Origin: Notamacropus eugenii
Taxonomy: Eukaryota > Chordata > Mammalia > Diprotodontia > Macropodidae
Assembly (NCBI RefSeq): GCF_028372415.1
Contig: NW_027325142.1
Location: forward strand, 87,501-151,500
Direction of reading: 5' to 3'
DNA length: 64,000 nucleotides
Shown: positions 7,944 through 61,094 of the stretch, in pieces
Position numbering within the stretch: the first letter of the stretch is position 1
Layout of the letters: each line of letters begins with the position of its first letter
The notes under the pieces: model-generated
What the model saw: the letters and a program-made list of their open reading frames with translations, nothing else
Database searches by the model: none
Told to the model about the DNA's origin: nothing
Program-made: the position numbers and the translations under genes

Positions 7944-8180
7944 TCACATTGATTTCCTTTGGGAGGTTCTTGATTTCTTGCTTCTTATTAGCTGGGGTTC
8001 CATACCACTAACAGTTGGTTGATACATTCCTTTCACATCAATATACTGGTAACAAGAGGGATTTATGCCTAGATCTGGAGGCTCTGGAAGCACAAGGTGA
8101 TGAGTCGAATCTTCTTGTGGCTGGCTAGATTCTTGTAGTAACTCCTTATTCCTTTGCATCTGTTGGACGCAGCTTATTAA
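7944..8180 (-). CDS. ATRX/ATRY: Last coding exon with stop codon
   Basis: A 237-base exon with a TTTCACAG acceptor, open to a TGA at 7944-7946. It encodes [60 protein letters not shown] and a final tail ending TSQRKSM. Human ATRX has LISCVQRILMNRRLQQQYNQ followed by a run of glutamines, then PKPPNLIMNPSNYQQIDMRG and an end at GPSQGKSM. The glutamine tract and the proline-rich segment before the terminus are missing, but the end is aligned, so this is the true C-terminus and not a truncation. Confidence 0.95.
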   Translation of the reverse strand, partial: LISCVQQMQRNKELLQESSQPQEDSTHHLVLPEPPDLGINPSCYQYIDVKGMYQPTVSGMEPQLIRSKKSRTSQRKSM

Positions 8181-11100
8181 CTGTGAAAGGAAGATTCAAA
8201 TTATTGACTCTGAAGAATGTAAAGATTTTGGGCTCTGGATTTAGAGAAGTTAGTCTTTGAGTACTTACTTTCTGACTTACTACTCCCCAATTACTTACTC
8301 CCTACAACTACAGCTACTTTCAACTCTCAAGTCTTTGTTAGAAAATGAATGTTTTTTAGAGATATCATATTTACAAATAATTTATGTTCTAGAAAATTAC
8401 ATGTAATTTTCTGAACAACTTAGATGATACATAGAAAACATTTATATAATAAGATACGTGATTAAAAGAGATATTTTCTGGTAGTAATATATAATATCAT
8501 ATATATCACGTACCTAAATTTATACATAGAATGCACCTATCATTTATCTACCTATATATTCTATCATCCAATCCATCTACAAATATTTTTTCAAAAGAAA
8601 TCATTTCAATATAAGGATCAAGAGTCAGAAACTAAGTCATCACTAGCATCTTCAGGAATATTCTTTAAAATACTTTTTGGTATCTCTACTTGGGAGAAAA
8701 AAGGTCTTATGACTATACACCTACTCGTCTCATTTGTCTTGAAATGTCTAAATAAATACATGGTGAAGTTTGCAGAAATGTAAAAATAAACTTACCATTT
8801 GCTGTCTTATGGATACATCATTGTAGATGGCTTCTCTATGTTTAGCATCTCGTTCCTGGCTGGCTTGCTTACGTAATGCCAAGGAATAAATTTGAGCGTC
8901 TGTCATATGTGTATTTTCTTTCCACTAAAGTAAAAATACAACACAACACCCAATCCTCAGTTGAATTTATTTATTAAGCATCTATTACACAATAATGTAT
9001 CAGACTTGGGAATACTCTGTAAACTCTGAGGACCCTTAAACTCCTGCTTTAAGAGGTGATTCTCAGGACTTTAGTTACCAACTGACAATCTTTTCTTAAT
9101 ACTTACTTTGTGTCAAGCACTATATAACTATAATTACAAGCAGAAATCCAGTCTCAGCCACTAAGGAATTCATATTCTAATGGAAGAAATCAATGCATAA
9201 AAAGTGAAAAGACAAAAAATGAGGAGGGGAAGAAGATGAAGAGTCCTGAGTACAGCCTAGAGAAAAATGAAGAGGTGACTGGACCAGGGCATATAAAGGC
9301 TAAGAATACTTCTGAGGTGTGAATTTCAGGGTGGAAGTCATCTTCCAGATGAAGAGTTTTCTGGAGCATGCTAAAGGGGTCTGGTAGGGAATGAAGAGCT
9401 ATCTGGACTGGGAACCATCTTTAAATGGAGATGCAAGAGAAGTCATCAAATCAGAAAGCTAATTCTCTTCCTAAAGGGTTTTTTAAATTTGTTTTCAGTG
9501 TTCTACAATCATTTCCACATATCTTAGATTTATTCCCCCTCCCTCTCCCTCCTTCCCCCTAATCCTTCACTCCCTCCCTGAGATGGCATCCAATTTTACA
9601 TAGGTTCTACACATAAATTTCTATTAAATACATTTTCACCTTAGTCATGTTGCATAGAAGAATTAAAATGAAAGGGAGAAATCATAAAACAAAATGTAAC
9701 ACAAAATAAAATGATCTGTTTCATTCTGCAGTTGAATCCCATAGTTCTTTCTCTGGATGTGGAAGACATTTTGCCTTAAGAGACCATTGGGAATTTTTTA
9801 AGTCCCTACATTGCAATGAAGTACTAAGTCTACCAGAAAAACTCCTCGCACATTGTAGTTGTTGTTGTATACAGTTCTCCTGGTTCTGCTCCTTTCACTC
9901 AGCATCAGAACATATAAGTCTTTCCAGGCCTCTCTGACGTCTTCCTGTTCATCATTTTTTATAACACATAACATTCATATACCACAATTTATTCAGTCAT
10001 TCCCCAATTGATGGGGATCTCATTGATTTCCAGTTTTTGGCCACCACAATGAGAGCTGCTATAAATATTTTTGTACACGTGGGACCCTTACAGTCTCTTG
10101 GGGATACAGTCCTAGAAGCAGTATTGCTGGGTCAAAGGGTATGCACATTTTTGTAGTCTTTTGGGCATAGTTCCAAATTGCTCTCCAGAATGTTTAGATC
10201 AGCTTACAGCTCCGCCAACAATGAATTAGTGTTCCAGCTCTCCCACATCATTTCTCACCTTCCTGTTTGGTCATGTTAGCCAATCTGATAGGTGTGATGT
10301 GATGTAATTTAGAGCATTTTTTCACATGACTATAGACAGCTTGAATTTCTTCCTCTGAAAACTGCCTGTTCATATCCTTTGACCGTTTATCAATTGAGGA
10401 ATGACTTGTATTCTGGTACATTTGACTCAGTTCTCTACATATTTTAGAAATGAGGCCTTTATCACAAACACTAGTTGCAAAAGTTCTTTTCCAGTTTTCT
10501 GCTTCCCCCCTAATCTTGGATGCATTAGGTTTGGTTGTGCATAAAACTTTTCAATATAATGTAATCAAAATTATCCATTTGGCAGTTTATAATGTTTCCT
10601 ATCTCTTGCTTAGTCAAAACTTCTTCCATTCTCCATAAATCTGATAAATACGCTATTCCTTGCTCCACTAATTTGTTTATAATATCAATCTTAATACCTA
10701 GATCATGTACCCAGTTGGACTTTATTCTTGTGTATGGTGTCAGGCATTGGTCTATACCTAGTTTCTGCCACACTGTTATCCAGGTTTTCCAGCAATTTTT
10801 GTCGAACAGTTTGAGTTCTTATCCCAGAAGCTGGGGTGCTTGGGTTTATCAAACAGTACAGTGCTATATTCATTAACTCCTGTGTCTTGAGTACCTAACA
10901 TATTCCACCGGTCTACCCCTCTGTTTCTTAGTCAATACTAAGTGGTTTTGAAAATTGCTGCTTTATAATACTATTTGAGATCTGGTAGCTAGGCCACCTT
11001 CCCTAGTATTTCTTTTCATTAGTTTCCTTGTTGTTCTGAACTTTTTTTTCTTCCGGTGAATTCCATTATTTTTTCTAGTTCTAGAAAATATTTATCTGAT

Positions 11101-14100
11101 AGTTTGATTGTTATGGCACTTAATAAGTAAAGTAATTTAGGTAAAATTGTCATTTTTATTATATTGGCTCGGCATGCCCACAAGCAACTGATGTTTTTTC
11201 CAGTTACTTAGATCTGACTTCATTTGTGTAAAGTGCTTTGTAATTGTGTTCATATAGTCGTTGGATTTGTTTTGGCAGGTAGACTCAAATATTTTATAAT
11301 GTTTACCATAGCTTTAAATGGAATTTCTTTTCCTATCTCTCACTGTTGGGCTTTGTTAGTAATATAGAAAAATACACAAGATTTGTGTGGGTTTATTTTG
11401 TAACCGGCAACTTTGTCAAAGTTGTTTATTGTTTCAGGTAGTTTTTTTACCTGATTCTCTGGAACTCTCTAAGTATATCATCATATCATCTGCAAAGAGT
11501 GATAACTTAGTTTCTTCTTTGCCTATTCTAATTCCTTCAATTTCTTTTTCTTCTCTTATTGCTACAGTTAACATTTCCAATACCATATTGAATAATAATG
11601 GTGATAATGAACATTCTTGTTTCACCCTTGATCTTAATGGAAATGCATCTAGCTTATCCCCACTGCATAAAATGCATTCTGAGGGTTTTAGGTAGATACT
11701 GCTTATGTTCTTCCTCATTGGAAGTGAGTTCATTTTCTCATTTTTGATATTGGCAATTTGGTATTCTTTTTTCTTTTTTTAAATCAAATTGACCAAAGGT
11801 TTCTCAATTTTATCGGTTTTTTCACAAAACCAAGTCTTAGTTTCATTTGTTAGTTCAATAGTTTTCTTAATTTCAACTTTATTAATCTTTCCTTTGGTTT
11901 TCAGTATTTTGGTATTTAATTGAGGGTTTTCAATTTTTTTTCCTAGCTTTTTCAGCTGCATGCCCAACTCATTGATCTCCTCTGTCTCTATTTTCTTCAT
12001 GTAAGCATTCAAAGATATAAAATTTTCCCTAAGAATCGATTTTGCAATATCTCATAAGATTTGGTTGGTTGTCTTATTTTTGTTATTCTCTTGAATGCAG
12101 TTCTTTTGTTTCTATGATTTGTTGTTTAACCCACTCATTCTTTAGCATTAGATTATTTAGTTTCCAATTAAATTTTGGTCTATCTTTCCATGGCCTTTTA
12201 TTACACATAATTTTTATTGCATTGTGACCTGAGAAGGATGTATTCACTATCTCTGCCTTTCTACACTAGATTGTGAGCTTTTATGTCCTAGTACAGGGTT
12301 ACTTTTTGTATATGTGCCATATTCTATCGCTATTCAATTTTCTCCAGAGATCTATAATATGTACTTTATCCAGAGTTTTATTCACCTCTTTAACTTCTTT
12401 CTTGTTTACTTTGAAGTTAGATTTCTCAAGTTCAGAGGGGGCGAGGTTGAGGTCCTCAAGTTTTGCTGTCTTATTTCTTCCTACAATTCCCTCAACCTCT
12501 TCTCTAAGAATCTGGATGCTACACCATTTGGAGCATATATGTTTATTAATGGTATTGCTTTGTTTTCTGTGGTGCCTTTTAGCAGGATGTAGTTTCCTTC
12601 CTTATCTCTTTTGATTAGATCTCTTTCTGCTTTTGCTTTGTCTGAGATTAGGATTGCTACCCCTGCTTTTTTTTTTTTTTTTACATCAGATGAAGCACAA
12701 TATATTTTGCTCCAACCTTTTACCTCTACGCTGTCTGTATCCCACCATTTCAAATGTGTTTCTTGCAAACAACATATTGGTGGATTATGGTTTTTAAATC
12801 CATTCTGCTATCCATCTCAGTTTTGTAGGAAAGCTCATCCTATTCACATTCACAGTTATGATTACTCTTTGCGTCTTTCTCTCCATCCTCTTTTCCCCCG
12901 TTTATGCTTTTAGTTCTCTCTTCTCCCTTCCCCTCCACAATAGTTTTAATTTTTGACCACCTCCTCCCACTGTCCTCTCTCTGTTCTTTCAACCCTCCTC
13001 CCTTTTATTCCTTCACCCTTGCTACTTCTTCCCTCCCTTTTAGCCTCCCCTCCCTCTACTTTCCTCCTTCCCCTCCTACTGCCTATAGAGCTCGTTAGAG
13101 TTATATATTTAAGTTTGTTGTTCCTTCCTTGAACCAAATCAGATGAGAGTAAATATCAGACAATGCTCATCTCCATTCCCTCTTTCTTATTTATTGTAAT
13201 AAAATTTTGTGCCTCTTTCTGTGATGTAATTTACTGTTTCCTGCCTCCTTTTTCACATCTCCTGCTACAATCCCTTCACACCCTTAAATCACATTTTTAT
13301 CATTCACATCATTTACTTTATATCCACTCCCTTTATCTATGTATGTCCCTTTTATATTTCATAATAAATATACAATTCTCAAGATTAACAAGTATCATCT
13401 TCCCTTATAGGAATGTAAACAGTTTGCCCATATTGAGTAACAATGTGTTTTTCCCCATTTATCTTTTAATGCCTCTCTTGAGACCTGTGTTTGAAGATCA
13501 AATTTTCTATTGAATCAGGAAGGTCTAGAAATCTCTTATTTTATTGAATGTCCATCTCCTTGCCCAAAATATCTGCTCAACTTTGCTGGGTAAGTGATCC
13601 TTGGTTGTAGTCCCAGCTCCTTTGCCTTACAGAATATCATATTCTAATTCCTTCAGTCTTTCAATGTAAAAGCTGCAAGGTGCTGTGTGATCCTGAGTAT
13701 AGCTCCTCGATTTTTGAATGGTTTCTTTCTGGCTACCTGTAGTATTTTCTCCTTCCCTGATCCTTGGTATTTTTAGTTTGGAATCCTTTTTGGGAGGTGA
13801 ACAGTGGATTCTTTCGATGATGATTCCACCCTCTAAATCTAGGACTTCTGGGCTGTTATTTTTTATGATGTCTTGGAAGATATTGTCCAAGTTCTTTTTT
13901 TCATCATGGCTTTCTTACAGGTCAATAATTCTTAGATTTTCTCTCCTGAATCTATTTTCCAGGTCAGTTGTTTTTCCAATTAGATAATTTACATTTTCTT
14001 CTATCTTTTCATTCTTTAGATTTTGTCTGACTGATTCTTGATGTCTCATAGAGTCATTAGCTTCTACCTGCCCAATTCTAATTTTTATCAAACTTTTTCT

Positions 14101-17100: not shown

Positions 17101-20100
17101 AAGTACTGCCCTGTGAGCTTTGAAAGAATGGAAAACCTACCAAGAGTCCCCTGCCCAGCAGGGAGCACAATGACTGAATCTGAATCTCAGTTTGGCAGAT
17201 ATTTAAGAATGCATTGCAGAGGAAAGATATTTGCTGGACTCCAATATTATGAGCAACCTGCCTGGTCTAGTTCATGGTTCAGAGAGGAAGTTTAACCATT
17301 CGGCCAAGTCACATTCAGAAGTTAATTTGGAATAGAGTTTTATCATTTGAAAGGCATATATATATATACATATATATATATATGCATATATTAATGTGTG
17401 CATATATGTATATGTGAGTGTTTACTCATTCTTCCAGTCTTCCTTTCTGAAATGAGACTTGTGTCAGTTAAAATAGAAGGTTATGAAAGATCTAAGCAAC
17501 AGAACCACAGGTTTACCCTTGTTTGGGTTCCTTGCCCTGATCACTCAGAATAACGTGATTCCATAGCAACTATAAACAATAAATTTTTGATATTCTGATT
17601 TTGCCATTTTTGGCCATGAATAAGTTAAGAGACCATTATATAGATGAAATGAAACAAATATATACTAATATTATTATTAAAATTAAATTTGAAGAAGTTG
17701 TAGTCAGAAAAAACAATGACTGACAGACAGCTTGGAAGCTGGAAGAACAAAGAAGAAAAAGAGACGATTATACTTATGTGTAACTGTAATTCATATACCA
17801 AGATTTGATGAAGAGAATGAAGAATGAGAAAGTTTTTGAAAGAACTTGACAATACTATCCACTGCATCACCTAGGTGCCCCATCTGATAACCAAATGCCA
17901 TGTAAAGGTAGCTAAGCAAAAGCAGTACTTTGCCTCCACCCAGACCTGTTTCAACCTGACCTCGCCACCACTGTCAATGCAGGCAACATATAAAATGTGA
18001 CCTGGTAACATTTTTCCAAGAGTACCACAAGAAATTCTACCCACCAAAGTTCTATGAAATGGCTCAGTGTCAAACACTAATAGCTTTTATCAACAGAAAT
18101 AGTCCTAAGGAGCAGAAAAGTAGCTAGTAACCTGAATGGGAAGACAATATCCAGTTCACACATCCAGCAAAGCCCTGCTTAGTATCAGCCTGACTAATGA
18201 CCAAGAACAGCAGTAAGAAACTCTAGTCAGTGAAGTTTTTCATAAAAGAACTAAAAAAAGAGTTCAGCCTGAGGGCAAGAAAGGTCCTTCCAGGACCATC
18301 CCAGAACATCCTCCCACCATGATCAGAAAGTAACAAAAGGAAATGGACTACGGAGAATTTGTATTTCCCATAACTATAGTGAGAACATTAACATGAAGTA
18401 AGAGTGAGCATTTGGAAAAATACCCCTATCTCAGATGGACAGTTGGGTATAGAAACAAACTCAAAAGAGAAAGAAACAGGAATGGCCGATAGACAGGGTT
18501 ATGAGGAAGGTTCATACTTGTGAATAGTGACAAAGAACAAAACAAAAGAAACAAATACTTTCTGAGCTTAAATCTTGGGGGTCACAAAAGGGTAAAAAGA
18601 AAACAATTAGCATCTGTCACAAAGTCTCTGATGGCCTCCTAAGACAATTGACAAATGGCTAAACAACTACTGGGATATAAGTGTAAAGGAGCATTATTGC
18701 AAAAGAAATCATCTCAGAGAATCCTGGGTAATACGAAATGAAGTGAGGACAACGCATATAACAAGAATATTATAAATAAAGCAACATTGAAATAGTTATG
18801 AATTCAGTTCTAATAATAACCACAGTCATTCTACCTGACTTGCAGCGGAAACCTGACGTATACGTATGTATGTGTAGGTATGTGTATATATACACACACC
18901 TATATGTATACATACATATATATGCATGCACGTATGCATATATGTATATATATACACACAACACACAGTATATGTTTGCACACATGCATATATGTATGTA
19001 TGCATACATATGTATATGTGTATATACATATTGATGTATCATGTATATAATCAAATGGGTATATACATACATATAATGTACACAAATTTATATATGCATA
19101 TATGTGTATAGCATTTTTATGTGCACTTCTTGGGAAAAAGGACCATCTTCTTTATCTATCTGAATCACAAACGCTTAACAAAATCTTTAGTAAAAACATT
19201 TTTATTCACTCACTCGCTGAAATCCCATTTAAAGCCCTTAAAGAAGAAAACTGAAATTTACCCTCCCCCGCCAAAAGTAATCAGCAAAACATCTCAACCA
19301 ATGGCCTCAAGAATACAAAACACTTCCTTCAATATTAGGTTAGGAAATCACAGAAAAAAATACTATTTATTGGCAAATAAAATATAGTAAAGCAACTGAA
19401 ACTGCACCTAAAAATGTCATCAGAAATGAAGACACTTTAAAGCGATATGTAGACTTAATAAATATGAAATTAAACTTATGGACAATATAAAAAACATGAA
19501 AATAAACAAATGGCTTAAGTGAAAGGGTAATGCAAATGGCAAGTCTATAGGACAAGTCAAGATGTTGCAATACAATTTGAAAAAAACAAAATTTCAAGCT
19601 TGAGATTTCAATAAGTCATTCCAAAAAGCCTTCCATAATTTTATGGGGTAAGAGTTTACTAACAGAAATATGCAAAAGAAATGAAGGTGAAAGAAACTGC
19701 ACAGGAAAAATAAAAGTAATAAGCAAAGCAAGATAGTCATTTAACTTACAAAATCTGTAATTACATCTTCAAGAGGTTGAACCTTCATTGACATCACATT
19801 CTTATTGGCTTCTGCTACTTTTTCTTTTCCCTGATTAATAAGATCCTGAAAGAAAAGAATTTTAGATAAATCCTTCAAATTTACACTTATATACACATAT
19901 GTAACAGTTAAAATCAGGTAAACTGAGTTTCAAGCACAATTTATTGGTAAAGTCTAATATCCCAAATGAAGGAGATAGTTCCCTTTTATAGATTCTATGG
20001 AGTAAAGAACAACGAATGAGAACCAGGTAGGCGACATCCTGACATTGAGGACAACACTGCTAGTCACGTAGCTGAGGCATGGGAAACAAATATGACTGGC

Positions 20101-21142: not shown

Positions 21143-21207
<65 letters not shown>

Positions 21208-45276: not shown

Positions 45277-46849
45277 GTATGTAGTTGTGAAGTTGATGAT
45301 GATTTTATCATCTGTAGTCTATTATTCCTTTTTTTATCTTGAATAGTTGAGTACAGGACAGCTCTCTTGTTACATTTTAAGATATCCTTTTATTTATGTG
45401 AATTCTATAATGATTCATTTGAAAAGTGAAGACACTCTCTGTCTTCAGAAATGGAGTGCAATAAATGTCAAACTCGTAAAAACCATACTTGATTAATAAA
45501 TTGGTTACTTTAGATGAACTTCATTTTTTAACTTTTACTTGCATGAGAACAAACATATGTCATCAATCTGTAGTAGAGCCTTCTGAACTCATTGCTCTGA
45601 TCAGTTGGAGTTGATCCTCTTTGATTAAGAAGGACAACTTACAAACAGATACAGGTTATTGTTTTTTAAACAAGATGTTCCTTTAAGTTATGTGTTTCCC
45701 TTACTTTACTAAAATTTTCTGAAAAGTGTTGACCATGAGAATGGTAGTATCCTTTTTGGGGTCTGTCAAAGCTTGTTTTCAGATTATTAATTCATTCACC
45801 TACTATAAAGCATTTTATTTCTCTTGAAATGAAAAAAATTGTTGATACTTTTTATTTTTATGTCACAATTTTATCTGGTTATCACATTTCTTTAATCCAC
45901 AGAACTGAAGTTGCTTTCAATAGGAAAAAAAATGTTTAATTAAAAAATCCCATGAAAAATCCAAACCTGGTACTCTTTATGTTTGACAGTACATACAATA
46001 TTCTGCCCTTGATTGCCTTTGCCTCAAGTGAGAGGAAGATATTTCAAATTACATCTTTTGGGGATTATTACTTCTTATAATAATGAAAAAAGTAGCATTA
46101 TATAATTGTATTTTATAGCACTCTTAAGTTTTCCAAAGTGCATTACATATACAATCTTGTTTGATGCACAAACAACCCTTTTGGACTGTTATTATAATAC
46201 CTATTTTGTTGATTAAGAAATTAAGTCTGAAAATGGTTGTTACTTGAGAAAGGATTTCTTTTGAGATCTTCCAACACTACCAACTGTGCTACTACTACTG
46301 GGTATCGGATTTCATTTTGTTCTTTGCAATTGTATTATTGTAATAATGTGTGTTGTGTGTGTGTGTGTGTGTGTGTGTGCTGTATATTTTCCTTTGAAAA
46401 GCTTTTGAATTTTCTTTGAATCAGTTTTTTAGTTAAAATGAATTCATTGAAAAAAAATTTAACTGTGCTAAATATTTTGTTCAGCCATACCCTAATGATG
46501 GGTTACTACATTGGTACTACTACCTTACTATTGCCAAATATTTCTCCATTTTTGCTATGAATAAAGTTATCGCCCCATTTTTATGTATAAAGATATTGAC
46601 TTCATGAATTGGATTATTTTAAAATTTGTGCTTAGTAAATGTTAACATTTTAACAGATTTTTATATGTAGAATTGAATGTTGATTCCTTTTTTAGAACTG
46701 CTACAAATATTATATGAGTGATGACATAAGCCGTGATTCTGAAGGAATTGATGAGCAGTGCAGGTAGGGATGTAGAAAACATGCAGAAAACATAATTATG
46801 AAATTTCATGTTTTGTATCAGTGACTTAAAATGTCATCAAATGTCAGAG

Positions 46850-46910
<61 letters not shown>

Positions 46911-49900
46911 ATATGTAGTCTATATTCAAAATGAGGGTGATACAAGTGTTTAAATTTCTGACTATAGACTTCTTTAAACATTTATTTATTTATTTAGTTT
47001 TAATTTTCAACATTCACTTTTATAAGATTTTGTTTTAAATATTCTCCTTTCCCTCACCTCTCCTTTTCCTCAAGATAATGTGCCATTTTATATAGGGCAA
47101 ACATGTAAAACCATATTAAACATTTCTGCTTTAGTCATGTCGTGAAAGAAGAATTCTAACGAAATGTAAAAAACTATGAGAAAGGGGAAAAAAACAATAA
47201 AAGAGCAAATAATCTACTTTGCTCTGCCTTCTGAGAGGAGGTTCTTTCTCTCGATGTGGATGGCATTTTGCATGATGAATACTTTGGAATTGTTTTAGGT
47301 TCTTGCCTCGCTAAGAAAGGCTAAGTCTATCAGAGTTAGTCCTTGCACATTGTGGCTATTACTGAGTGTAATGTTCTCCTGGCTCTGCTCCCTTCGCTCA
47401 GCATCAGTTCCTACTAAGTCTCTCCAAGTATTTCTGAAGTCCACCCATTCCTCATTTCTTACTGCACAATAGTAGTCCATGACATTTATCTACCACAACT
47501 TGTTCAGCCATTTCCCAATGGATGGGGATCCCTTTGATTTCGAGTTTTTTGCCACCACAAAAAGAGTTGCTGCAGATATTTTTAGTTTTCCTGTTTCATC
47601 ATGTGACCCATCCAACAAGTATGATTTGGTAGTTGTTTTGATTTGTATTTCTCCAGTCAATGGTGATTTAGAGCATATTTTTCATATGACTATAAATAGC
47701 CTTCGTTTCTTCTTCTGAAAACAGCCTGTTCATATCCTCTGATCATTTGTCAATTGGTGAATGTTAGAGACACTGCCTGTAAAAATTCTTGTCTAGTTTC
47801 TCATAATCTTGGTTGTATTGGCTTTGTTTCTGCAAAAATTTCAATTTAAAGTAATCAAAATCATCCATTTTGCGTTTCATAATGTTCTATATCTCTTGTT
47901 TAGTCATAAATACTTCCCCTCTCTTTCTTAGCCAGTATCAAGTGCTTTTGATGATTGCTGCTTTATGATACCATTTGAGATCTTGTAGGGATAGGCCACC
48001 TTCCTTAGCATTTCTTTTCATTAATTCTCTTGATATTCTGGATTTTTTGTTTTTCCAGATGAATTTTGATACTATTTTTTCTAGCCCTATGGAATAATTC
48101 TTTTGGTAGTTAATTGGTATGGCACTGAACAAGTAAATTGATTTAGGTAGAATTGTTATCTTTATTATATTAGCTCGACCTGCCAAGGAACTGGCATTTT
48201 TCCAGTTACTTAGATCTGACTTTATTTGTGCGAAAATTGTTTTGTATTGGTGTTCATAGAGTTCTCAGGCTTATTCTGACAGGTAGAGTCTCAAATATTT
48301 CATAATGTCTACAGTAATTTTAAATGATATTTCTCTTTCCGTCTCTTGCTGTTGGACTTTGTTAGTGATGCATAGAAATAACCATGATTTAAGTGGGTTT
48401 GTATTATATATCCTACAACTTTGTTGTTTGTTATTTCAAGTAATTTTTTACTTGATTCTGTAGGATCTCTTACATATCATTTGCAAAGAGCAATAGCTTT
48501 TGTTTCTTTTTGGCCTATTCTTATTTCTTCAGTTTCTTTTTCTTCTCTTCTTGTTAAAGCTAACATTTCTAGTACTATATTGAATGGCACTGGTGATAAT
48601 GGACATCCTTATTTCACCTTCAATCTTACTGAAGATGCTTCTGTCTTATCCCCATTACCTAAAATTCTTGCTGATGGTTTTAGATACATACTACTTAACA
48701 TTTTGAGGAAGACTCCATTTATTCCTATGTTCTCTAGTGTTTTTAATAGGAATGGGTGTATTTTGTCAAATGTTTCTCCTGCATCTGTTGAGATAATCAT
48801 ATGAATTCTATTAATTTTGCTGATTTCTATTAGTTATGCTGATAGTTTTTCTAATAATGAACCAGCTCAACCTTCAACCTTCCTTGTATAAATATTTAAT
48901 ATTTTTGCCTTTCTGCATTGGAATGTGAGGTTTTTATATTTTATTTTTATTGTTTTTAGTATATGGTCAATTTTGGGGTTAGGTTCCATTTACCCTGAGA
49001 AAAAGATATATTCTTTTCTCTCATCATTCAGCGTTCTCCAGAGGTATCTAACTTTAAAATCCTGTCCATCTCCTTTCTTGTTTATTTTGTGGTTACATTT
49101 ATCTAGTTCTGAGAGGACATTGATGTCCCCAACACCTGTAGTTTTTTGTTCTTCCTGTCACTCCCTAAATGTCTCCTCTAGGAATTTTGATGATGTACCA
49201 TTTGGTGCATATATGTTTAATGATATTACTTCACTGTCTATGGTACCTTTTTAGCAGGATGTAGTTTCCTCCTTTATTTCCTTTAGTTATGTGTTTTTGC
49301 TTTTGCTTTGTCTGAGATTGGAATTGCTACCAACCTTTTACTTCTATCCTGTGTGTATCCCCCTGCTTCAAATATTTCTTGTAAACAACATATTGCAGGA
49401 AAATGTTTTTTAATCCATTCTGCTATCTGCTTCTGTTTTATGGAAGAGTTCATCCCCTTCACATTCACATTTCTGATCACTATCTGTGTTTTTCTCTCCA
49501 TCCTATTCCCTCCCCCCAACCCCCCTTATGTGTTTTTTTGTCTATTTGCTCCCTTTCTCTTTTCATTAGAGTTTTGCTTTCCACCACCACCTCCCTCAAT
49601 TTGGCCTTTCCTCTATCAGACCTCCTCCACTTTCTTTCCTTTATGCCCTCCTACTTAGCTACAGGGTAAGTTAGATTTTTATACCTAACAGATTATGTTA
49701 TTGTGTCCTTGAGCCAAATCTGATCAGAGGAAGATTCAAGCAATACTCATCTCCCTCCCTCCTTCCTGCTACTTTAGTGTATATCAATGTGATGTAATTT
49801 ACCCTTTTTAATCCCTTCTTTTCTTCTTCTGCCAGTACAATCACTTTTCACTACTAAATTAGACTTTTGTATCACCACATCAAAGTAATTTTATACCCAT

Positions 49901-52900
49901 GCCCTCTTATCTATGTATACACCTTTTAAATGTCATAATAACAATACAATTCTCAAGAGTTACAAGTATCATCCTCCTTTTAGGGATGTAAACTGTTTGC
50001 CTTTATTGAATAAAATGTTTTTTTCTTTCCAGCTTACCTTGTTATGCCTCTCTTGAGTATTGCATTTGAAGCTCAAATGTTCTGTTGAGCTTTGCTTTTT
50101 TCTTTTTTATCAGAAAGGTTTGGAAGTCCTCTATTTCACTGAATTTCCATCTCCTCCCCTGAAAGATTATGCTCAGTTTTACTGGATTGTTGACCCTTGG
50201 ATCTAATTCTTTCCCTTATGGAATGTCTCAACCTCCACTGGTGGCACAAGCTCTGCCATTCCAGTGCTGCTTCTCTCCCTGGGCCTGCCATCCAAGATGG
50301 GTCTGAGCATGGGCAAAGCAACAAAATCCTGCCTCAGTGCAAGCAACGAGACCCCTGTACTCTTCTTCTGACCGGCTGTTCGACCCCCTTACTGACTGTG
50401 GGCTGAGAGCTGCAGAAGCAGCCAGTGCTGATTCACTGGCTCCCAAGGTCACTGACTGGCTTGGACTGGAATATTGTTTTATCCTTTACATTTATTGGTT
50501 TTTCTACTCCAGAGTTACTTTTAAGGCAGTATTTTGAAGTTCTAAAGCTGTTTGGATAAGAGAAGTTGAGTGAATTTCTGCCTCAACACTGCTATCTTGG
50601 CTCCAAGTATATGTACGATTTTAATGAAAGTGTGTTGTGTTAAGTTTTAAAAATAAGCACATTTTGATTCCTGATTAGTTTTTATTTTTAAGTTTTTAAT
50701 AGTTGTTTGATTAGGAATGATGCCTTAATATTATTTTTGTTTTGTTTTATATTTCAGGTGGTGTGCAGAAGGTGGAAACCTAATTTGTTGTGACTCTTGC
50801 CATAATGCATTTTGCAAGAAATGCATTTGGCGCAATCTAGGGCGAAAAGAGATATCAAAAATAATGAATGAAAAAAATGAGTGGCATTGCTATATTTGCT
50901 GCCCAGAACCTTTGTTAGATTTGATTGCTGTATGTGACAGTGTGCTTGAGAATTTATCTCATTTAAAGCAACAGAAGGTAAAGGCTGCAGTTAAAAAGAG
51001 TGGGAAGACATCTGACTGTCCCCATGAATTCCACTCCTCCACCAAAAGGGAAAGTAATGCTGAAGAAAAATCTCAGCTAGATAATTCTTATTCTGGTACT
51101 GTAGCACATTCTTTTTCATCATTAAATATTCCAGTAGACTTGATTAAAAAGACCATAACAGTGGTTGAGAACACTGCAGTTATGAACTCTAGCTTTTTGA
51201 CATTTTTGGAACAAACCACCAGTAACTCGGAAATTACCTCAAATACTAAGCTAAATCAGTTGACAGCTATTAGATCTGTGATAAGTGACATAAGTAAGGC
51301 TCATAAGGTGTTAGAAGAACACTTGAACAAGAAGATAAGTAGCTTGGTTGTTAGAGACGAGGAAAAAAATAATAAAGAAAGGAAAAATGATGCTAAAATT
51401 AAAAACGTAGATAAGAAATTAGAAGAGGAAAATAAATTTGCTACAAAGACAAAAAAGTTTTTGAGTGACAAAATGGATAAAGAAATTATGGTCCCAAGAG
51501 CAACAACTGACGAGGTTAATACAAATGAAGAACTACAAAATGAACCTCCCTGTACTTCTAAATCTTTAGATATGGACTTGCCATCTTTTCCTTCTTCAAG
51601 ACCTGAAGTTATTTTTAAAAATGTAGAAACTTCAGTCACTATCCAGAATGATGAAAATACTGAAGTATTTAAGGACACAGAAAAGTGTCCTTTAGAAACA
51701 AATGAATCTTCAGAAGTTGGCAAAAAAAGACCCAAGTTAAAGACATCAACAAGGAAATTATATGTTAAACTTTCTCCCATTTCCAAATCAGATTTCTCAT
51801 TGAAAGACACTATCGATCAAGAGAAAATAGAAGACGAATATCAACAGGAGACCAGTATTACAGGAAATACTGAAGTCCTCAAGGAAAATATTATCATCCC
51901 TGGTAATGACACTACATTATTGAAGGAAGAAACTGACCTTCAAACAACACCTTTAATCGGACAGATAGAAAAAGAGCTTGTTAAATCTAATTCAGAACAA
52001 AGTAATAAAAAACGTAGAGAAAAATCATCAGGACAGTGGGGAAAAAAAGGGAGAAAGATTTCTTTGCCTGAAGAAAAGTTCAAGTTAAGTAACAGAGAAT
52101 CCAATTCAGATTCCAGTGAAAAGCCAAAAAAAGAGGCTAAGAATTCTTCAGAGTCTGATACTGATTTAAAAGATGAAAATATTCAAAAGGAACCTGTATC
52201 CAAGGCAAAATGTCACACGCGTAAAGGTGTTAAAGCAAAACGAAAAAGAGAAGATTCTGTTACTAATTTAGATAATGATGACAAAAAAAGTAAAGCCTCT
52301 ACAGAAAATATCAAGAAGCAGCAGGATGAAAATGATTTTTCATCCCCTTCATCTGACATGTTCAACAGTGACAAGTCTGAAATGACCATTACAGAAAGTA
52401 CTGATGCATCACATTTTCAGTTGTCAGGTATGTAAAAAATAGTTTAAATTCCTAGAGACATGTTTATTTCTTTTTGTGTGATGATAATTTTAAACTGCAT
52501 TATTAACATAAGAGAAACAACCTCTTAAAGAGTGTAGATGGTTATGATGTCTTTTTTGTTTACAAAACATTTTTCTTTTATCCACCCTATAATAAAAAAA
52601 AATACTTAAAGTTTAGGGAAAGTATATGTATTCTTATTTTGCATGTTCTTATATAATTTGTATTTAAGTATGAAAATTTGGGCAGGAGAATAGTAGTGAA
52701 AAAATCACTTAATTTAAAGACTGAGGTTTATGTCCTTTAGTAGGGCAGACGTTCTAAAAATCTCTAAAATTCAGTTTTTCTACCCTATTTATTTTACTTA
52801 CCTGATTTATTTCACATCTAGACTTTTTAAAAATCACAACATTTAGGTAGCCCAACTCTATTGTCTCTTTGAATTGTTCTCTAGATGAGTTGTTTTTCTG

Positions 52901-55900
52901 ATGATATATATCACATTTGCTTTTACTTTTTCACTTTTGGTTTTGTTTTATTATTTTTTGGTACCTGGTAATTTGTTTCTTTTTTCCCAGTTCGAGTTTT
53001 CAAGGAGTTGTTTTCTTCTTTGATCTCTTTTTTCTAATTGGTTGATTGACTCTATTTTCATAAATTTTTTTATTTTCTTGAATTATTCTTATTTTTTTCT
53101 CAGCCTCTTCCTTTTTTGTGTGGAGGAAATTTGGAGACCTTGGAAATTTCTGGCCTATTCCACCATCTTTCCAGAATTGTATAAGATTTTTCTAAAAGCC
53201 TTCATCCAGTAACTTTCTTTTTTGGTTTAAATCCATCCTCATGTAAAAATCAGTTAATAGAACTTGAGAAAATAATAATAATAACACTCAAAACAAAGAA
53301 AAACATAATAATTGGTGTGCTTTTTTTGAATATCTTGCTGTTGTTTCACTAATTTTTAGTTGAATTTTTATGTCATTTTTCAGGTTGATTTTCATTTTTT
53401 TCATTTCCTTTGTGCTTCTGTTCATTCCCTTAATTTCCTTTTCTCATTGCCAAAGGTAGCATTTCTTTCAGTATTTTAAATGATATTCAGCTGATCGGTC
53501 AACACACACTTACTGCAAATATGTATCGTATTGCAGACACTCTCCTAAGTAGTGGGAATGCGAATCAGGAAGCAGTTATTTATATAAGCAGTGAAAACAG
53601 CATATAAGTTACATTCAGAGTAGATACAGGATAATATAAAAAAGGTGTAGACTTTGACTTTTAGCTAAAGGGCAAACCAAGAAGACAAAGCAGAACTTTA
53701 TATTCTTAGTTGACAGCAAATGATTTGGAGTGTAAAGTTCGGGAAATATTTGTAGATTCGCACACATGAATTGTAGTCTATGCTCAGGGAACGCAAGTGT
53801 AAAAAGTCAGGAAATATAGTCATGGAAACCTAAATTTTCATACGGGAGAAAACAAGGAGATTCACAAATGTATTTTATGATAATATACTGAATTCACATT
53901 TGGGATATAACCTGGAAGAATGTTACATAGCAAAGTTTATTTTGATCTTCAAGAAAAATATTCTTTGAAAGACATGGAAAATTGTATTACAAGGGGAATG
54001 AAAAAAACTGTGCAAAGTCAGATTATGATGTGTGAGGAGCGCTGAACAGAGAAAAGATTGAATTAAGATGGGTTGAAGCAGGGTTGAATGGGGTTTCAAA
54101 AGCATAAAGCTTTACCTGTAATTTCAGGAATAATAGGAAGTCACTAGAATTTATTGAGTAGTGGAATGATGTTGTGAGACTTGTGTTCATCTGCTAAATT
54201 ATTAAAATATTGAGTAAATTTTAATGTAAATTTTTGCAATAGAATGCTAGAGTAGAGCTTAATTTTAATCTTTTTTTTATTCACTAATCAAAGTAAACAC
54301 TGATCAGTCACTTCATTCTGAGCTTGAAGGAAAGAAAGTTGTGGATGACATCACTGAACATGTTCAGCAGCCAGGGACAAGGTAGTTTAATAATTTTTGT
54401 GTTTCATTACCCATATTTTTTTAATGTTATGTTTTAAGAAATTTGTTATATGGATTTTTGGTTTGGATTTAATTGCCATTTCTGTATAATTGTCTATTTA
54501 AGAGTTTGTGTTTTCTAATTTAGAAATTGCAAATTTATGGGATAGTCTCATAAAATAGGATCTAATGAGTGTGTCTCTACAATATTTAGTTCTCATGATG
54601 TTTAGTTCTCACTTTGGTAACCATTTTTTTAAAGTTCTGGTAATTGCTATGTTGGTACCTTTGTTGGTATAGTTAAAAAAGCAACTTAATTCTTCAAATT
54701 ATTCAGTGTAAGGGAAAAATCTTATTGTTTATGAAGACTGTTTAAAAATTAAAAAAAAATTATATTGACTTTATTACTTTTTAACAGTTTCAGGAGACAG
54801 TTTTTTTATTGATTTAAAAGAATCTTATGAATATTTTATTTATGATCATTTATTAAACACTTTCTATTTACCAGGCACTAAAGGATACGAAAAGAAGTAA
54901 AAGATTGTAGTTCCTGCTTCCAGGGAGCGTACATCATAATGGGGGAGCTAATAAGCAAATACACACACACACATACACACATACACACACACACGCACAC
55001 ACACACATACACAAGTAATCTATACAGAAGATAAATAGAAGGTAATTGAAATAGGGAAGACAGTGGAATTAATAGTTGGGAAGAAAATTCACTGTAGAAG
55101 GTAGATTTTATTTGAGACTTAAAGGAAGTCAGGGAGTCAGTGCAGAGAAGGAAGGACCTGGAGCTGAGAAATGGAGGGTCCTGTTCATTGAAATAAGGTG
55201 TAAGGAGACTGGAAAGGTTCCCAAGTTAGAAGGGGACTAAATTACCAAAGCCAAACAGAGCATTTATATTTAATTTTGGAGGCTGAAGTTTATTGAGTAA
55301 GGGAGAAGGGTGTGTATGCTGTGATTGGATTTATATTTTAGGAAAATCACTCAATGGCCAAATCTATGATGGGTTAGAGTGAGGAGAGACTGGAGACTGG
55401 TGGATTTCTCAGCAACAGCTACTGATAGGCCCTATGGTGGTTCTGAGGTTGTCAGCCTGGAAAACTGTACAATAAATATCAGGTTTAGATCAACACCCAG
55501 CCAGTATAAATTGGATACAAGACTGGAGGGAAAACAAAGAAATTATTTTCCCAGTCTGTGGATAGGAGAAGAAAATAGGAGAACTTTGGACTTATTAAGA
55601 GTGAATTGAAATGAGAATATTGATAACATTAACAGCTTTCAGATATTTTAAAGCATTTATTGATCCTGTAATAAACAAGAGTCTAAAGGAAAGAAAATGA
55701 AATTTGACACTTATTTTCTGCCCAACAATAAACATAAAATGTAGAGACGGGTACATTTTCAGATATGGCTAATGTGGGAGCTTGTTTTGCTAAACTCAAA
55801 GCTATGTATAATAATACAAAATATTATTTGAAATTGAGTGAAAGTGACATGAGTTTAACAAAAATGCTTTTGATGTGAAAAATATTAATAAATAAAAAAT

Positions 55901-56225
55901 AAGATCATAGGTTTGTCCATTATTAATGTCAGTTTAACAGAGTACTAGAAAAGTTGGCTAAAGCAATAATGTAAGGGAAATTGAAAGTAACGCTTTGGCT
56001 GCATGTTATAGATTTGGCTATGCAACAATTGTAAGTCTTTTGTTGTTTTTGTGATTTTGCACAAACCTTGTAATATTGTATGAAATGATCCTTGGTCATT
56101 TGTGTCCATATGAACTAGCAGAAGTTGATGGGAATCACTTTAACTAGGTTCCCTGCCCTTCTTAATAGCAAGGTTAGAAAAATAACTGAACAACAACTTA
56201 TAGAGAAATAGAAAATAGAGATATT

Positions 56226-56272
<47 letters not shown>

Positions 56273-59200
56273 TATATGATGTGTGTGTATTCTCCAGTGG
56301 TATGTATTTTATTATGATACTCAGTTTTACCTTCATTCCCTATCAGCTCAGCAAAAAGCATAATGGTCCATAGTAATCAACGAAGTTACAAACAGAAGAA
56401 AAGGAAACATATTAAAGTAAAGGAGAATTTATCAACTGAACATAATAAGGTATATATTAGCCTTTTTTCCCCTTCCCTAACCTTAAATAAATTATTTCTC
56501 TACAGTTTTATATATATATATGTATATATACATATATATATAACCAGTTTAAAATATATATGTACATTTTATTTTTTCATAGTTTAAACTATAACAATTA
56601 ATTTTCATAGATATGCTAATTTACACATGATACACATTTTATGAAATAATACAGTATAACTAGATATATTTAGGTGCTTTTCTACTAAAACAAATTATCT
56701 TTGTTATAGTTACTTAGATATCTTGTTGTCATTTGCTATTCTTACATGCATATTCCTGAAGCTGTGCTAAAGGACTGACTTTTCATAGTGCCATTTTTCA
56801 TTTTATGAAATTTCACCAACACTGTGTGTCCTAGGATTCGTGTTAAATTTGCTTTCTATTTCATTTGTAGCATAATATTATAAAATGTTTTCCAAGTGTA
56901 AGCCTTTAGCTAGCTGAACCTTGGTAGTTTTATCACTTTTGCATAGGATTATTTAATTTATTAGTAAATGCGTATCAATTTTTGCTGTTCAGTTTTGTGT
57001 TTCAGTCATTTTTCAGTTGTGTCCAACTCTTCATGACCCCATGTGGGGTTTTCTTGGCAAAGATATTGGAATAGTTTCATTTCCTTCTTCAGTTTGTTTA
57101 TTCACGGTCACATAACTAGTAAGTGCCTGAGACTAGATTTGAACTCAGGAAGAGGAGTCTTCTTGACTCCAGGTACTATATCACCTGCATCAACTAGCTA
57201 CCTCTAAACATTTGTCAGATGTCCATTAATGATGACATTTGTTATGAATTTATCTTTAATATTTTTAAAAACATAGCACACTCAAAACAAGCTATCATAG
57301 TTATTCCTTCCCATGTACTTTTGTACATTAAAAGTATTCTACTTAAATTAAGTATATCTTATAGAAATAGAGTTGAAAGGAATCTCTATAACCTTTAAAG
57401 TCTTACCCTTAATTGTCCTTAATCTATATGCACTGAATAGTGATTTCATTTTGTTAGTTTGTGTTGGATTCTAGGGTGTTTTTCCCTATATCTAACAATT
57501 ACTTCCAATTATTACAGAATCTTTCTGAAAATGATGAATCAAAGTCACCAGAACAAAGTAGAAAGAAAATTAAAAATATCCTTGACAATGATAAATTACA
57601 AAGAGAAACACAGAAAGCACTTAAAGAAGAAGAGAGGAGAAGAAAACGCATTGCTGAAAAACAGCAAGAAAGAGAAAAATTAAGAGAGGTGAATTACTAA
57701 ATACTAGATATGATTCTTGTCTTCTTGAATTCCTGCTAATATTTAAAACATATATTCTTCCAGGTTGCATATACTAACCTAATGTGAATTCAGCATTAGC
57801 CTTAATACATGGTCAGTTTTTGTGAATATTCCATGCACTGCTGAGAAATTCACTCTTTTCTACTCAAATCCATTCAGTATTCTCCCAATTCTAATTCAAT
57901 CCATTAATTTCTTTCTTGTTTATTATTATTTTTTCCAAATTTATTAATTTGTTTTCAGTTTTCAACATTTACTTCCATAAGTTTTAAATTTTTCCCCGGT
58001 CCATCCCCCCCAAAACACACAATCTTCTGTGGGCTCAAGACATGTGTTCCCATTACACATAAATTACACATCCATTTTTACAGTCATGTTGCATAGAAGA
58101 ATTACAGCAAATGGGAGAAACCATGAGAAAAACAAAACAAAACAAAATCTGACAAAGAAGAAAAGAGTCCACTTCATTCTACATTATTCTTATTATTAGT
58201 TCTGACTTTGATGACCTTACAGGCATTTACAGATCTAAATCTGTGATCTGCTGAATTGCCTTTCTTCTGTGAGAGTTCTTTTCTATAGAACTGGAATTAC
58301 CCAGAATGTTTAAAGCCGAAGCAATTAATTAAAACTTTAAAAGAATATAAGATACTTGAGAACAGAGACTATGCTCATGTTCTCTCAGTTTCTCAAATGC
58401 ATTTCCTCTGATAAATATGTCATACTTGATGAGGTTAATTGGAGTAAAATGAAAATTGCTAAATCCATACTTTGCTAAAAATAACTTTTGCCATTTGTTT
58501 TGTATTTATCATTATCATTTACCATTGCAGATTTGAGACCAAAAAAATTTAAAAAAATTAATACATTAATTGTTCCTATTTTTATTTTCCTGATAATTCA
58601 ACTGTTTTTTACCCTTTTTCTTGCAGGTGGTAGATAGTTCTGCTTCACCTACTGAGTGTCCAATTACAATCAAACTTGTTTTAGATGAAGATGAAGAAAC
58701 CAAAGAACCTCTGGTTCAGATTCATAGAAACCTGGTTACCAAATTGAAACCTCATCAAATAGATGGTAAGGATGTATGATGTATTGATATATTTAAAATA
58801 CATTTTAAGTGACTTATTTACATAATTCTTTTTATTGTCTTAGAACATAAGCAGTTAATATATAGTTTGCATGCATTGGTGAAAGGAAAATTTCTTGGGG
58901 GATGTGTGTATTTTTTTTTTCATTTTTTCATTTTTTTTCATTTTAAGCATTTTATTTTATTTTAAATATTTTAAATATTTAAAAAAATTTACTCATTTAT
59001 TTTTAGATTATGACATTCATTTCCACAAAATTATGAGTTCCAATTTTTCTCTCCATCTCTTCCCTACCCTCACTCCATAACACCTTGTATTCTGATTGTT
59101 CCTTCCCTCAATGTGACCTCCCTTCTATCACACCTCATTCTTCCCTTATCCCCATGTTCTCTACCTGTATTTCTTATTTCCCAGTTATATGCAATAACAA

Positions 59201-60299
59201 TTCTCAACATTCGTTTCTAGTACTTTGAATTCTAACTTCTCTCCCTCCCTCCGTCCCCACCCGTCCCCACTGAGAAGGCAAGCAATTCAGTACAGGCTAT
59301 ATATGTGTCGTTTTGCAAAAGACTTTCATAGTAGTCATGTTGCGTAAAACTAATTATATTTCCCTCCATCCTACCCTGGCCCCGCTTTTTTCTATTCTCT
59401 CATTTGATCTTATCCCTTCCCGAAAGTATTTACTTCTGATTACTCACTTCTCCCATTTGCCCTCCCTTCTATCATCCCCCTCATCTCACTTGTCCCTTTC
59501 TCTCCTACCTTCCTGTAGTGTAAGATAGATTTTCATGCCAAATTTAGTGAGCATGTTATTCCCTGCTTAAGCTGAATGTGATGAGAGTAAGCCTCCTCCC
59601 TTTTCTCCTCCACTGAAAAAGATTTTTCTCATTGCTTTTATGAGTGATAATTTACCCCATTCCATTTCTCCATTTCTCCTCCCAATATACTCCTCTCTCA
59701 CTCCTAAATTTTATTTTTTTATAGTTAACATCCTTTCTGATTCAACTCAACCTGTGCTCTCTCTCTATGTGTGTGTGTGTGTGTGTGTATGTGTGTGTGT
59801 GTGTATGTGTGTGTGTGTGTGTATAATCCCTCCACCTATCCAAATACTGAGAAAAGTCTCAAGAGTTACAAATATTATCTTTACATGTGGGAACGTAAAC
59901 CATTCACCTTTAGAAACTGTTGACTTGATTTTCAAACACTTCCATGGCCTGAGCTCATTGCATATCCATTTTGGAGTTACTGGATGCAGAAGCCTTGACT
60001 TCCTGTGACGGTATGCATTGTTCTTCCTCCTCTGAAAGGATGGAAGGGAATACCTGTTCACCAAGAGAGTAACCTTCTGTGGTCTTATTTTTTTCCCCTT
60101 TTTGGGCATTTTCCCAACCAGTTACTTGGTTTCTGAATCCTTTGTCAAGAGGAGGGTCCTAGTGCTCTTCCTCACTCCAGGACCATGCTCGGGGCTGAGA
60201 TTTAGATCAGTTTCTCAATTCCTCCAGGGGCTTTAAGCAGAGCTGCTCTCACAATGGATGCTGCTGCCTGACTCTGCCACTGCCATGCAGCTCTATTGC

Positions 60300-60335
<36 letters not shown>

Positions 60336-61094
60336 TGGGGCTCGTGCTGGGGGGAACCCTGATCTCCTCTCACCCAGCCTGGAAAGCCTTCTCACTGACC
60401 TTTGAAGCTTTCTTCAGCGCTTGTGGGTTGAGGGATCTGAGACTCTCCCTGCTGGGGATTCTGCCATGGCCTGTTCTGGTATTGTTCCTCCTGGTGCACA
60501 TGGCCAGCGTCCTGTGGGATAGACCTTTCCTGTCAGCCTTCCAGGTTACCTTTGCCTGGAAATCTCTTTCATTCTGTTGTTCTGTGGCTTCTGCTGCTCT
60601 AGAATTTGTTGAGAGTCGTTTTTTACAGGTATTTTATGGGTTGTGGGGGAAGAGCTAGTGTATGTGCATCTTTCTAATCTGCCATCTTGGCTCTGCCCCT
60701 CTTAAAATTATTATTAGAGAAATTTAAATACAATTGTTATTTAAATTTCTTTAAACAAACCTAGACATGAAACAATTGATAAAAATTAACAAGTATGAAT
60801 TTAAGGTTTTTTTAAAACTTAAACTCACCAAATATATATTATATATTCAGCATATGTAAAAGCCTGAGGACTGAGAGAATATAAGCAGTTCCCATCTGGT
60901 TCCATAGTCCTCGTTAAAATTTTGAAATTTTGACTAAAAAGTCACACAAATTTCAAGGTTTTTTTGTTAATTTATTTTACATAGGTGTTCAGTTTATGTG
61001 GGATTGCTGTTGTGAATCTGTAATACAGACAAAGAAATCAGCAGGCTCAGGATGCATTCTTGCCCACTGTATGGGTCTTGGGAAGACACTACAG
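45167..61094 (+). CDS. ATRX/ATRY: ATRX-family helicase, N-terminal half (8 exons, probable ATRY)
   Basis: Eight + strand exons at 45167-45276, 46696-46763, 50758-52427, 54294-54381, 56347-56449, 57518-57688, 58627-58765 and 60985-61094 join in phase to about 819 codons. In order they encode the ADD domain (a GATA-like finger plus a PHD-like finger, which in ATRX reads histone H3 K4me0/K9me3), a Lys/Ser/Glu-rich linker with an HP1-type LYVKL motif, a basic helix ([19 protein letters not shown]), and the start of the SNF2 ATPase with Walker A GLGKT. All introns are GT-AG, and no stop or frameshift occurs. Human ATRX needs roughly 1,440 residues for the same interval, so about 600 residues are missing, mostly from the giant central exon. 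The exons upstream of the ADD and those after GLGKT are not in the window. This half complements, without overlapping, the - strand half across the gap, which suggests one gene on misoriented contigs. Confidence 0.93.
46347..46379. repeat. (GT)n microsatellite
   Basis: About 33 bases of GT in the intron between the first two ADD exons. Confidence 0.97.
46696..46763 (+). CDS. ATRX/ATRY: ADD domain exon 2: linker with H3K9me3 pocket residues
   Basis: A 68-base exon starting in phase 0 and ending two bases into an Arg codon completed by the next exon. It reads [21 protein letters not shown] then C. The cysteine completing the GATA-like finger (human C200) and the first PHD cysteine (C220) are present, as are the residues equivalent to human Y203, Y204, D207 and I209 that line the K9me3 pocket. 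Changes from human are conservative (F to Y, D to E, M to I). Confidence 0.95.
46848..46916. repeat. (TA)n(GT)n microsatellite
   Basis: A short TA run followed by about 45 bases of GT, about 90 bases after the exon ending at 46763. Confidence 0.97.
46978..50613 (-). mobile_element. L1 with 5' UTR and ORF2 but ORF1 deleted
   Basis: - strand order is 5' end near 50613 (CTTGGAGCCAAGATAGCAGT), 5' UTR to about 50228, then directly inter-ORF sequence (about 50100-49660), then ORF2 and a 3' UTR ending near 46978. ORF2 shows endonuclease (49519-49283, [20 protein letters not shown] and CCLQE), reverse transcriptase (48800-48609, [20 protein letters not shown]) and the C-terminal region (48186-47938, [20 protein letters not shown]). 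ORF1 is missing between 5' UTR and inter-ORF region, and ORF2 has many breaks. It is antisense to the host gene, in the intron before the large central exon. Confidence 0.88.
50758..52427 (+). CDS. ATRX/ATRY: Large central exon: PHD finger of ADD, then low-complexity linker with LYVKL motif
   Basis: A 1670-base exon between ATTTCAG and GTATGT, open across 556 codons. Its first ~60 residues complete the ADD PHD finger ([20 protein letters not shown], then [11 protein letters not shown] and [11 protein letters not shown]), retaining the residue mutated in the common human R246C syndrome allele. After a helical stretch ([14 protein letters not shown]) it becomes Lys/Glu/Ser-rich and poorly conserved. 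An HP1-type motif LYVKL lies at 51758-51772, and basic NLS-like clusters KKRREK and KAKRKRE follow. From memory the equivalent human exon is about 3.1 kb, so this one is roughly half length and lacks most of the repetitive SSD/KKK blocks. ATG 50864 is internal, not a start codon. Substitutions near the zinc sites include F to S after CCD and H to C after CYIC. Confidence 0.95.
52428..54293 (+). other. Intron between large central exon and next exon; L1 ORF1 remnant inside
   Basis: Intronic DNA with a - strand L1 ORF1-like remnant at about 52890-53170 and an old interspersed repeat at about 53495-53650. I searched by eye for codons of the DAXX-binding helix (human core MLLEEIKANL) and saw none. 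Confidence 0.6.
54294..54381 (+). CDS. ATRX/ATRY: Linker exon ending at the TR|S boundary
   Basis: An 88-base exon that starts by completing a GTA codon and ends two bases into a codon. It reads [19 protein letters not shown] then [10 protein letters not shown]. Its sequence is not recognisable as human ATRX, but its 3' border falls where human has PRTR|SAKK, and phase is maintained on both sides. It was found by phase and splice-site fit rather than by similarity, so it is the least certain exon of the set. Confidence 0.75.
54843..55560 (+). repeat. Ancient interspersed repeat, long copy
   Basis: Begins ATCATTTATTAAACACTTTC then ACCAGGCACTAAAGGATACG, CAGGGAGCGTACATCATAAT and GGGGGAGCTAATAAGC, continues past an AC microsatellite, and includes GGAAAATCACTCAATGGCC and GAGGAGAGACTGGAGACTGG. 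The opening matches shorter copies near 9090, 22745 and 25690. Family not assigned. Confidence 0.5.
54959..55014. repeat. (AC)n microsatellite
   Basis: ACACAC with interspersed ACAT over about 55 bases. Confidence 0.97.
56226..56272. repeat. (GT)n microsatellite
   Basis: About 46 bases of pure GT, roughly 75 bases upstream of the exon at 56347. Confidence 0.98.
56347..56449 (+). CDS. ATRX/ATRY: Basic linker exon (NQRSYKQKK)
   Basis: A 103-base exon between TATCAG and GTATAT, ending at a codon boundary. It encodes [20 protein letters not shown] then [14 protein letters not shown]. Human ATRX has [20 protein letters not shown] at this point, so orthology is clear. The long glutamate run that follows in human ATRX is absent: the exon stops after the HNK codons and the next exon opens with [13 protein letters not shown]. 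Confidence 0.95.
56983..57209 (-). mobile_element. Marsupial tRNA/RTE-tail SINE
   Basis: On the + strand it reads TTTCAGTTGTGTCCAACTCT, CATGACCCCATGTGGGGTTT (the complement of the RTE-like tail), then CACATAACTAGTAAGTGCCT and GATTTGAACTCAGGAAGAGG (CORE), and ends at the tRNA-like head near 57209. Same family as the copies at 38508 and 40690, opposite orientation. Confidence 0.85.
57518..57688 (+). CDS. ATRX/ATRY: Charged helical exon before the SNF2 domain
   Basis: A 171-base (57-codon) exon in phase 0 between ATTACAG and GTGAAT. It encodes [19 protein letters not shown], then [17 protein letters not shown] and [18 protein letters not shown]. It matches the human SKSPGKGRKKIRKIL and ALKEEEERRKRIAERER region, a long amphipathic basic helix just N-terminal to the ATPase. 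Confidence 0.96.
57922..58185 (-). mobile_element. L1 3' UTR fragment
   Basis: Matches the 3' end of the L1 at 9480-9740 (GTCATGTTGCATAGAAGAAT shared exactly). 5' truncated, antisense to the gene. Confidence 0.85.
58627..58765 (+). CDS. ATRX/ATRY: SNF2 ATPase entry exon (LKPHQ)
   Basis: A 139-base exon between TTGCAG and GTAAGG. It encodes [20 protein letters not shown], then [20 protein letters not shown] and KPHQID. The final segment is the Q-motif region (LKPHQ) that begins the SNF2 ATPase. It is close to human ([20 protein letters not shown]). Confidence 0.97.
59769..59822. repeat. (GT)n microsatellite in LINE 3' UTR
   Basis: GTGTGT with interspersed GTAT. The related copies at 28142 and 62851 carry an AC/GT run at the same relative position. 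Confidence 0.97.
60301..60334. repeat. (CTG)11 trinucleotide repeat
   Basis: Eleven uninterrupted CTG units in the 5' UTR of the HAL1-like copy, about 650 bases upstream of the Walker A exon. On the opposite (LINE sense) strand it is CAG. Confidence 0.97.
60985..61094 (+). CDS. ATRX/ATRY: SNF2 ATPase motif I exon (Walker A)
   Basis: A 110-base exon between TTACATAG and GTAACA. It encodes [20 protein letters not shown] then [17 protein letters not shown]. The Walker A lysine (human K1600) is intact, so ATP binding is plausible. This is the last gene exon seen on this contig. The next expected residues, VVSFLHT, are not found between 61095 and 64000, which is repeat-filled intron. Confidence 0.97.

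Follow-up and report, generated by a model that had tools for sequence, protein, structure and literature searches.

Opposed halves of an ATRX-like gene in a tammar wallaby assembly most likely reflect a misoriented contig at a 500-N gap

How can one gene run in two directions at once? In the 64,000-nucleotide stretch of Notamacropus eugenii (tammar wallaby) DNA analysed here, referred to as the window, the exons of an ATRX-like gene lie head to head on either side of an assembly gap, and the question is whether this layout belongs to the animal or to its assembly. We consider it very probable that the window holds two contigs from a single ATRX-like gene, which is most likely the Y-linked gene ATRY, joined by a 500-N filler with one contig misoriented. 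The opposed arrangement most probably arose in scaffolding and not in the animal.

The initial exon search used an approximate human ATRX sequence as guide. On the right contig, plus-strand matches to this guide begin in the ADD domain and end at the Walker A exon; on the left contig, minus-strand matches start in the helicase C half and continue to the C-terminus. These searches caught seven of the right-hand exons, whilst the eighth (exon D0) surfaced only on alignment of the tammar protein P0001, which is introduced below. An earlier sequence-only reading of this DNA had described nine minus-strand exons on the left and eight plus-strand exons on the right, and both sets are borne out by the P0001 alignment and by the splice sites, with AG acceptors at all 17 exons and GT donors at 16 of 16 (Table 1). 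The same reading gave the gap as exactly 500 N, which is correct; it is the sole N run in the window. Its distances to the contig ends stand for the right contig, which begins 324 bases before its first exon, and need a small correction for the left contig, which ends 180 and not 181 bases before its own.

Table 1. Contigs, gap and exons of the ATRX-like gene in the window
Feature	Positions	Strand	Basis or remark
Left contig	1-44342		begins before or at the window start; N run at 44343-44842
Assembly gap, exactly 500 N	44343-44842		N run; junction held to be false
Right contig	44843-64000		reaches the window end; most simply the contig with the wrong orientation here
Exon A, first ADD exon seen	45167-45276	+	P0001 from residue 88
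Exon B, ADD domain	46696-46763	+	alignment to human guide and P0001
Exon C, end of ADD domain and long charged exon	50758-52427	+	structure match and P0001
Exon D0, short	54294-54381	+	revealed by P0001 alignment
Exon D	56347-56449	+	P0001 alignment
Exon E	57518-57688	+	P0001 alignment
Exon F, up to start of SNF2 ATPase	58627-58765	+	P0001 alignment, domain search
Exon G, Walker A exon	60985-61094	+	ends at P0001 residue 906
Exon h, first of left half	44056-44162	-	P0001 from residue 1337
Exon i, helicase C	41766-41874	-	P0001 alignment
Exon j, helicase C	37163-37340	-	P0001 alignment
Exon k	34870-35064	-	P0001 alignment
Exon l	25207-25356	-	P0001 alignment
Exon m	21262-21369	-	one of the three residue differences from P0001
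Exon n	19750-19845	-	P0001 alignment
Exon o	8796-8924	-	P0001 alignment
Exon p, stop codon 7946-7944	7944-8180	-	two of the three residue differences from P0001

The reading frames are open in both halves (819 residues on the right and 435 on the left, with no internal stops); the last right-hand exon closes in phase 0, and the first left-hand exon opens on the final base of a codon. Since introns are present and the frames are open, a pseudogene or retrocopy was ruled out. We also dropped a tandem acceptor at exon D (CAGCTCAG) that would have kept the frame without an eighth exon, as exon D0 makes the first acceptor fit. Exon C is presumably a shortened counterpart of ATRX exon 9.

P0001 is a Notamacropus eugenii protein of 1771 aa, named 'transcriptional regulator ATRX-like' and listed from a single record of 534,368 bp. 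Its residues 88-906 correspond to the right half (819/819 identical) and its residues 1337-1771 to the left half (432/435 identical), in line with the earlier statement that the halves do not overlap in protein space. The query of the protein search for P0001 lacked the 31 residues of exon D0, and so comprised 1223 of 1254 residues. As P0001 carries the right half and then the left half, the two halves, judged from this alignment, belong to one gene that is read from the right contig to the left contig. The collinear order is here the protein order in P0001, known from the protein sequence and the record listing. A search for half-gene protein models gave none near-identical to the left half among the best 120 of 533 matches (candidates of 239-761 aa), and the only named marsupial among those 120 was represented by a koala fragment at 79%.

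Residues 1-87 and 907-1336 of P0001 were not found in the window. When P0001 was compared with the whole window (E up to 0.01), residues 1-84 and 911-1336 stayed uncovered, in a search that a very short diverged exon could escape; the few edge residues covered beyond the exons are intron read-through. Residues 1-168 and 1600-2040 of the human guide gave no exon above 22 bits in the stretches of the right contig that were searched, and no additional exon was detected at 61095-64000 by the human guide or P0001 searches. Given that neither segment of P0001 was found in the window, the two ends that abut the gap would not be adjacent in the true sequence.

Two contigs allow eight combinations of order and orientation, and the gene is collinear in only two of them, R+ L- and its reverse complement L+ R-. 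Only one relative arrangement, in two notations, restores collinearity. The repair proposed in the sequence-only reading, in which the left contig is reversed and moved downstream of the right contig, proves to be one way of writing it, in agreement with the order in P0001 and with the missing middle that the repair predicted. The likely contig misorientation proposed there is supported by P0001, which comes from one record and has the halves in the order predicted. It is enough to flip the right contig without moving it, which equals the two-step repair read from the other strand. The 5' exons would then be expected past the end of the right contig that at present abuts the gap, and the middle exons between position 44342 and the opposite end of the right contig, which is beyond the window.

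Membership of the ATRX family, as first proposed, stands, and can be refined: the gene groups with ATRX-like/ATRY proteins, not with ATRX. Exon C alone matches ATRX ADD structures (2jm1, E 1.9e-34), and a domain search with P0001 returned ADD_ATRX (E 1.6e-27), SNF2-rel_dom at 866-1188 and Helicase_C at 1320-1454. The parts of P0001 in the window hold only the start of SNF2-rel_dom and most of Helicase_C, so that of the two features of the ATRX/ATRY family, the ADD domain and the SNF2 ATPase with helicase C, the latter is read from the domains of P0001. We placed the gene in a midpoint-rooted tree of 20 rows, comprising the window and 19 proteins chosen from 225 fetched, in which the long row P0037 is flagged as unsure. 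The window, P0001 and the proteins of wombat, Dromiciops (two), Gracilinanus and Monodelphis form an ATRX-like clade of seven rows (100/100), and five marsupial ATRX proteins, including tammar ATRX, form a separate clade (100/100); grouping apart from marsupial ATRX is the pattern of marsupial ATRY. From the window, the path length is 0.0031 to P0001 and 0.58 to the wombat protein, which suggests tammar itself or a very close species.

Against the approximate human ATRX guide, P0001 shows 63.8% identity and tammar ATRX 79.6%, close to the published values of 61% for ATRY and 78% for ATRX (PMC3133603). In other reports, ATRY is a Y gene expressed in tammar testis (PMC3277949, PMC3820666), and it is said to have split from ATRX in the ancestor of therians, the monophyly of ATRX being weakly supported there (PMC3477149). 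The separate clade, identities near the published values and these papers on ATRY lead us to call the gene most likely ATRY, and we infer its Y-linkage. P0001 lies on the 534-kb record, and tammar ATRX on a separate 103-Mb record.

The ATRX-like proteins of Dromiciops (P0003 and P0037) share an 85,160,330-bp record with Dromiciops ATRX (P0130), and the Gracilinanus protein P0004 is on an 82,251,158-bp record. Such records of 85 and 82 Mb complicate a simple Y-linked account: either these species have X-linked relatives, or Y contigs were placed within the X during scaffolding. A koala ATRX-like protein (P0229, 442 aa, from a 34,068-bp record) is another fragmentary marsupial entry of this type of gene; it is 84.9% identical to P0001 over 438 residues, 86.1% to Dromiciops P0003 and 80.8% to tammar ATRX.

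The alternative that survives best, although we regard it as improbable, is an inverted duplication: two ATRY copies of near-identical sequence would face each other on the chromosome, with the remainder of both lost in the gap, and the halves would derive from different copies. The three residue differences from P0001 are confined to the left half (3/435 vs 0/819, one-sided p about 0.042), which would also fit its origin in another copy or individual; the true length of the gap is not fixed by 500 N, so much sequence could be missing; and the two Dromiciops proteins on one record indicate that copies can multiply. However, the halves share no protein segment, and near-identical DNA common to both contigs is absent. 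Comparison of contig against contig gave 25 matches, the best at 85% among those of at least 100 bp, and the terminal 601 bp of each contig have no match elsewhere in the window, and hence there is no sign of an inverted duplicate. Moreover, a single tammar ATRX-like entry, which stands for four member sequences, occurs among the best 120 of 1407 and the best 120 of 1580 matches.

Y chromosomes are subject to frequent rearrangement, and a real inversion on the Y of this animal could have broken the gene with its breakpoint coinciding with the gap. A very recent break is compatible with the intact frames; because the window is almost identical to P0001, open frames fail to separate an artefact from such an event. 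The inversion is nevertheless very unlikely, since the breakpoint would have to coincide precisely with an arbitrary 500-N filler, and a gene described as testis-specialised (PMC3277949) would be destroyed. That the halves come from different genes, such as ATRX and ATRY, joined by mistake is scarcely credible: nothing favours it beyond the split itself, and both halves are far nearer to P0001 (100% on the right and 99.3% on the left) than to tammar ATRX, P0142 (53.4% and 75.6%), which argues against a mixture.

A misjoin of two contigs of one gene remains our preferred explanation. Filler, not sequence, occupies the junction, and the gene is collinear in another record, as given by the protein order of P0001. 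A scaffolder would have inserted a fixed 500-N filler between the contigs with one of them in the wrong orientation. In the animal, the 5' exons (P0001 1-87) would be followed by the right-contig exons, the middle helicase exons (907-1336) and finally the left-contig exons. Fillers of this length appear in several assembly papers: 500 Ns separate contigs in 3D-DNA Hi-C assemblies of two projects (PMC10320752, PMC12879420); in another study 100 Ns bridged contigs before SALSA and 500 Ns were used for reference-guided joins (PMC10942973); and 500 Ns were placed at reference-guided joins (PMC9835750) or used for unplaced contigs (PMC9178229). Our literature search found no use of SALSA with gaps of 500, and the terms '500 bp', '500-bp' and '500 N' had no match in the VGP paper (PMC8081667). 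As filler length and use differ among papers, 500 N does not name the scaffolder. According to the SALSA2 paper, inversions were more than half of the errors on simulated data, and orientation errors increased as contiguity dropped (PMC6719893).

As assembled, the layout would split one gene relevant to sex chromosomes into two spurious genes and could pass for a Y inversion; the corrected locus would make 17 exons of the gene available for comparison. An Antechinus assembly contains multiple partial matches to the same gene on different scaffolds (PMC9631953), and from this one example the gene may be hard to assemble more widely.

Outside the exons, the window contains a 3.4-kb degenerate TCTA microsatellite array of about 868 copies (98-3559) and remnants of L1-type retrotransposons at 11437-11778, 12484-12807, 27224-27976 and 63230-63607. 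Four of five repeat-like open frames that were sampled match L1-type or reverse-transcriptase/endonuclease domains (a reverse transcriptase, an endonuclease below the curated cut-off and two ORF1-type domains), and the frame at 48609-48833 had no domain match.

ATRX reads histone H3 tails and remodels chromatin. The protein encoded here, an ATRX relative that combines an ADD domain with an SNF2 ATPase, would by analogy do both in the testis. The ATRX helix DPENRIAKKML, which we take to be the DAXX-binding element, has counterparts in P0003 (Dromiciops), P0004 and P0006, with substitutions in the two opossums (Gracilinanus and Monodelphis), and is absent from P0001 (tammar), P0037 (the other Dromiciops copy) and P0002 (wombat, as represented by a protein model). 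No helix counterpart was found at 52400-56400 of the window with fragments of four proteins, taking the six best matches of each; the leftover weak matches, of 15-19 bits and several on the other strand, look like chance. No DAXX-helix exon was detected in the intron between exons C and D0 (52428-54293), in searches whose controls recovered exon D at just 20.8-23.5 bits, so that a strongly diverged exon could be missed. On balance, these comparisons lead us to favour a loss of the DAXX-helix exon or exons from wallaby and wombat ATRY, with the ADD domain and ATPase kept, and such a protein would act without DAXX. If so, in a male-specific ATRX relative the reading of histone tails and remodelling would have become naturally uncoupled from the loading of H3.3. 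We found no paper with both ATRY and DAXX in a literature search whose scope excluded older subscription papers, and the exon loss may already have been described in that older literature.

The locus can be set beside four known systems. It resembles a Hi-C scaffold orientation error in its fixed 500-N filler and in the flip of one contig that restores collinearity. Compared with P0001, 1251 of 1254 residues are identical and the parts follow one order; P0001 is one protein from one record, whereas the window gene is on two opposed contigs, with 87 and 430 residues not found. With ATRX, P0001 has in common the ADD domain, the SNF2 ATPase and helicase C, but only 11 or 12 of the 358 ATRX guide positions from 831 to 1188 are filled in all six ATRX-like proteins compared. 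The likeness to marsupial ATRY lies in the clade apart from ATRX and in identity figures similar to the published ones.
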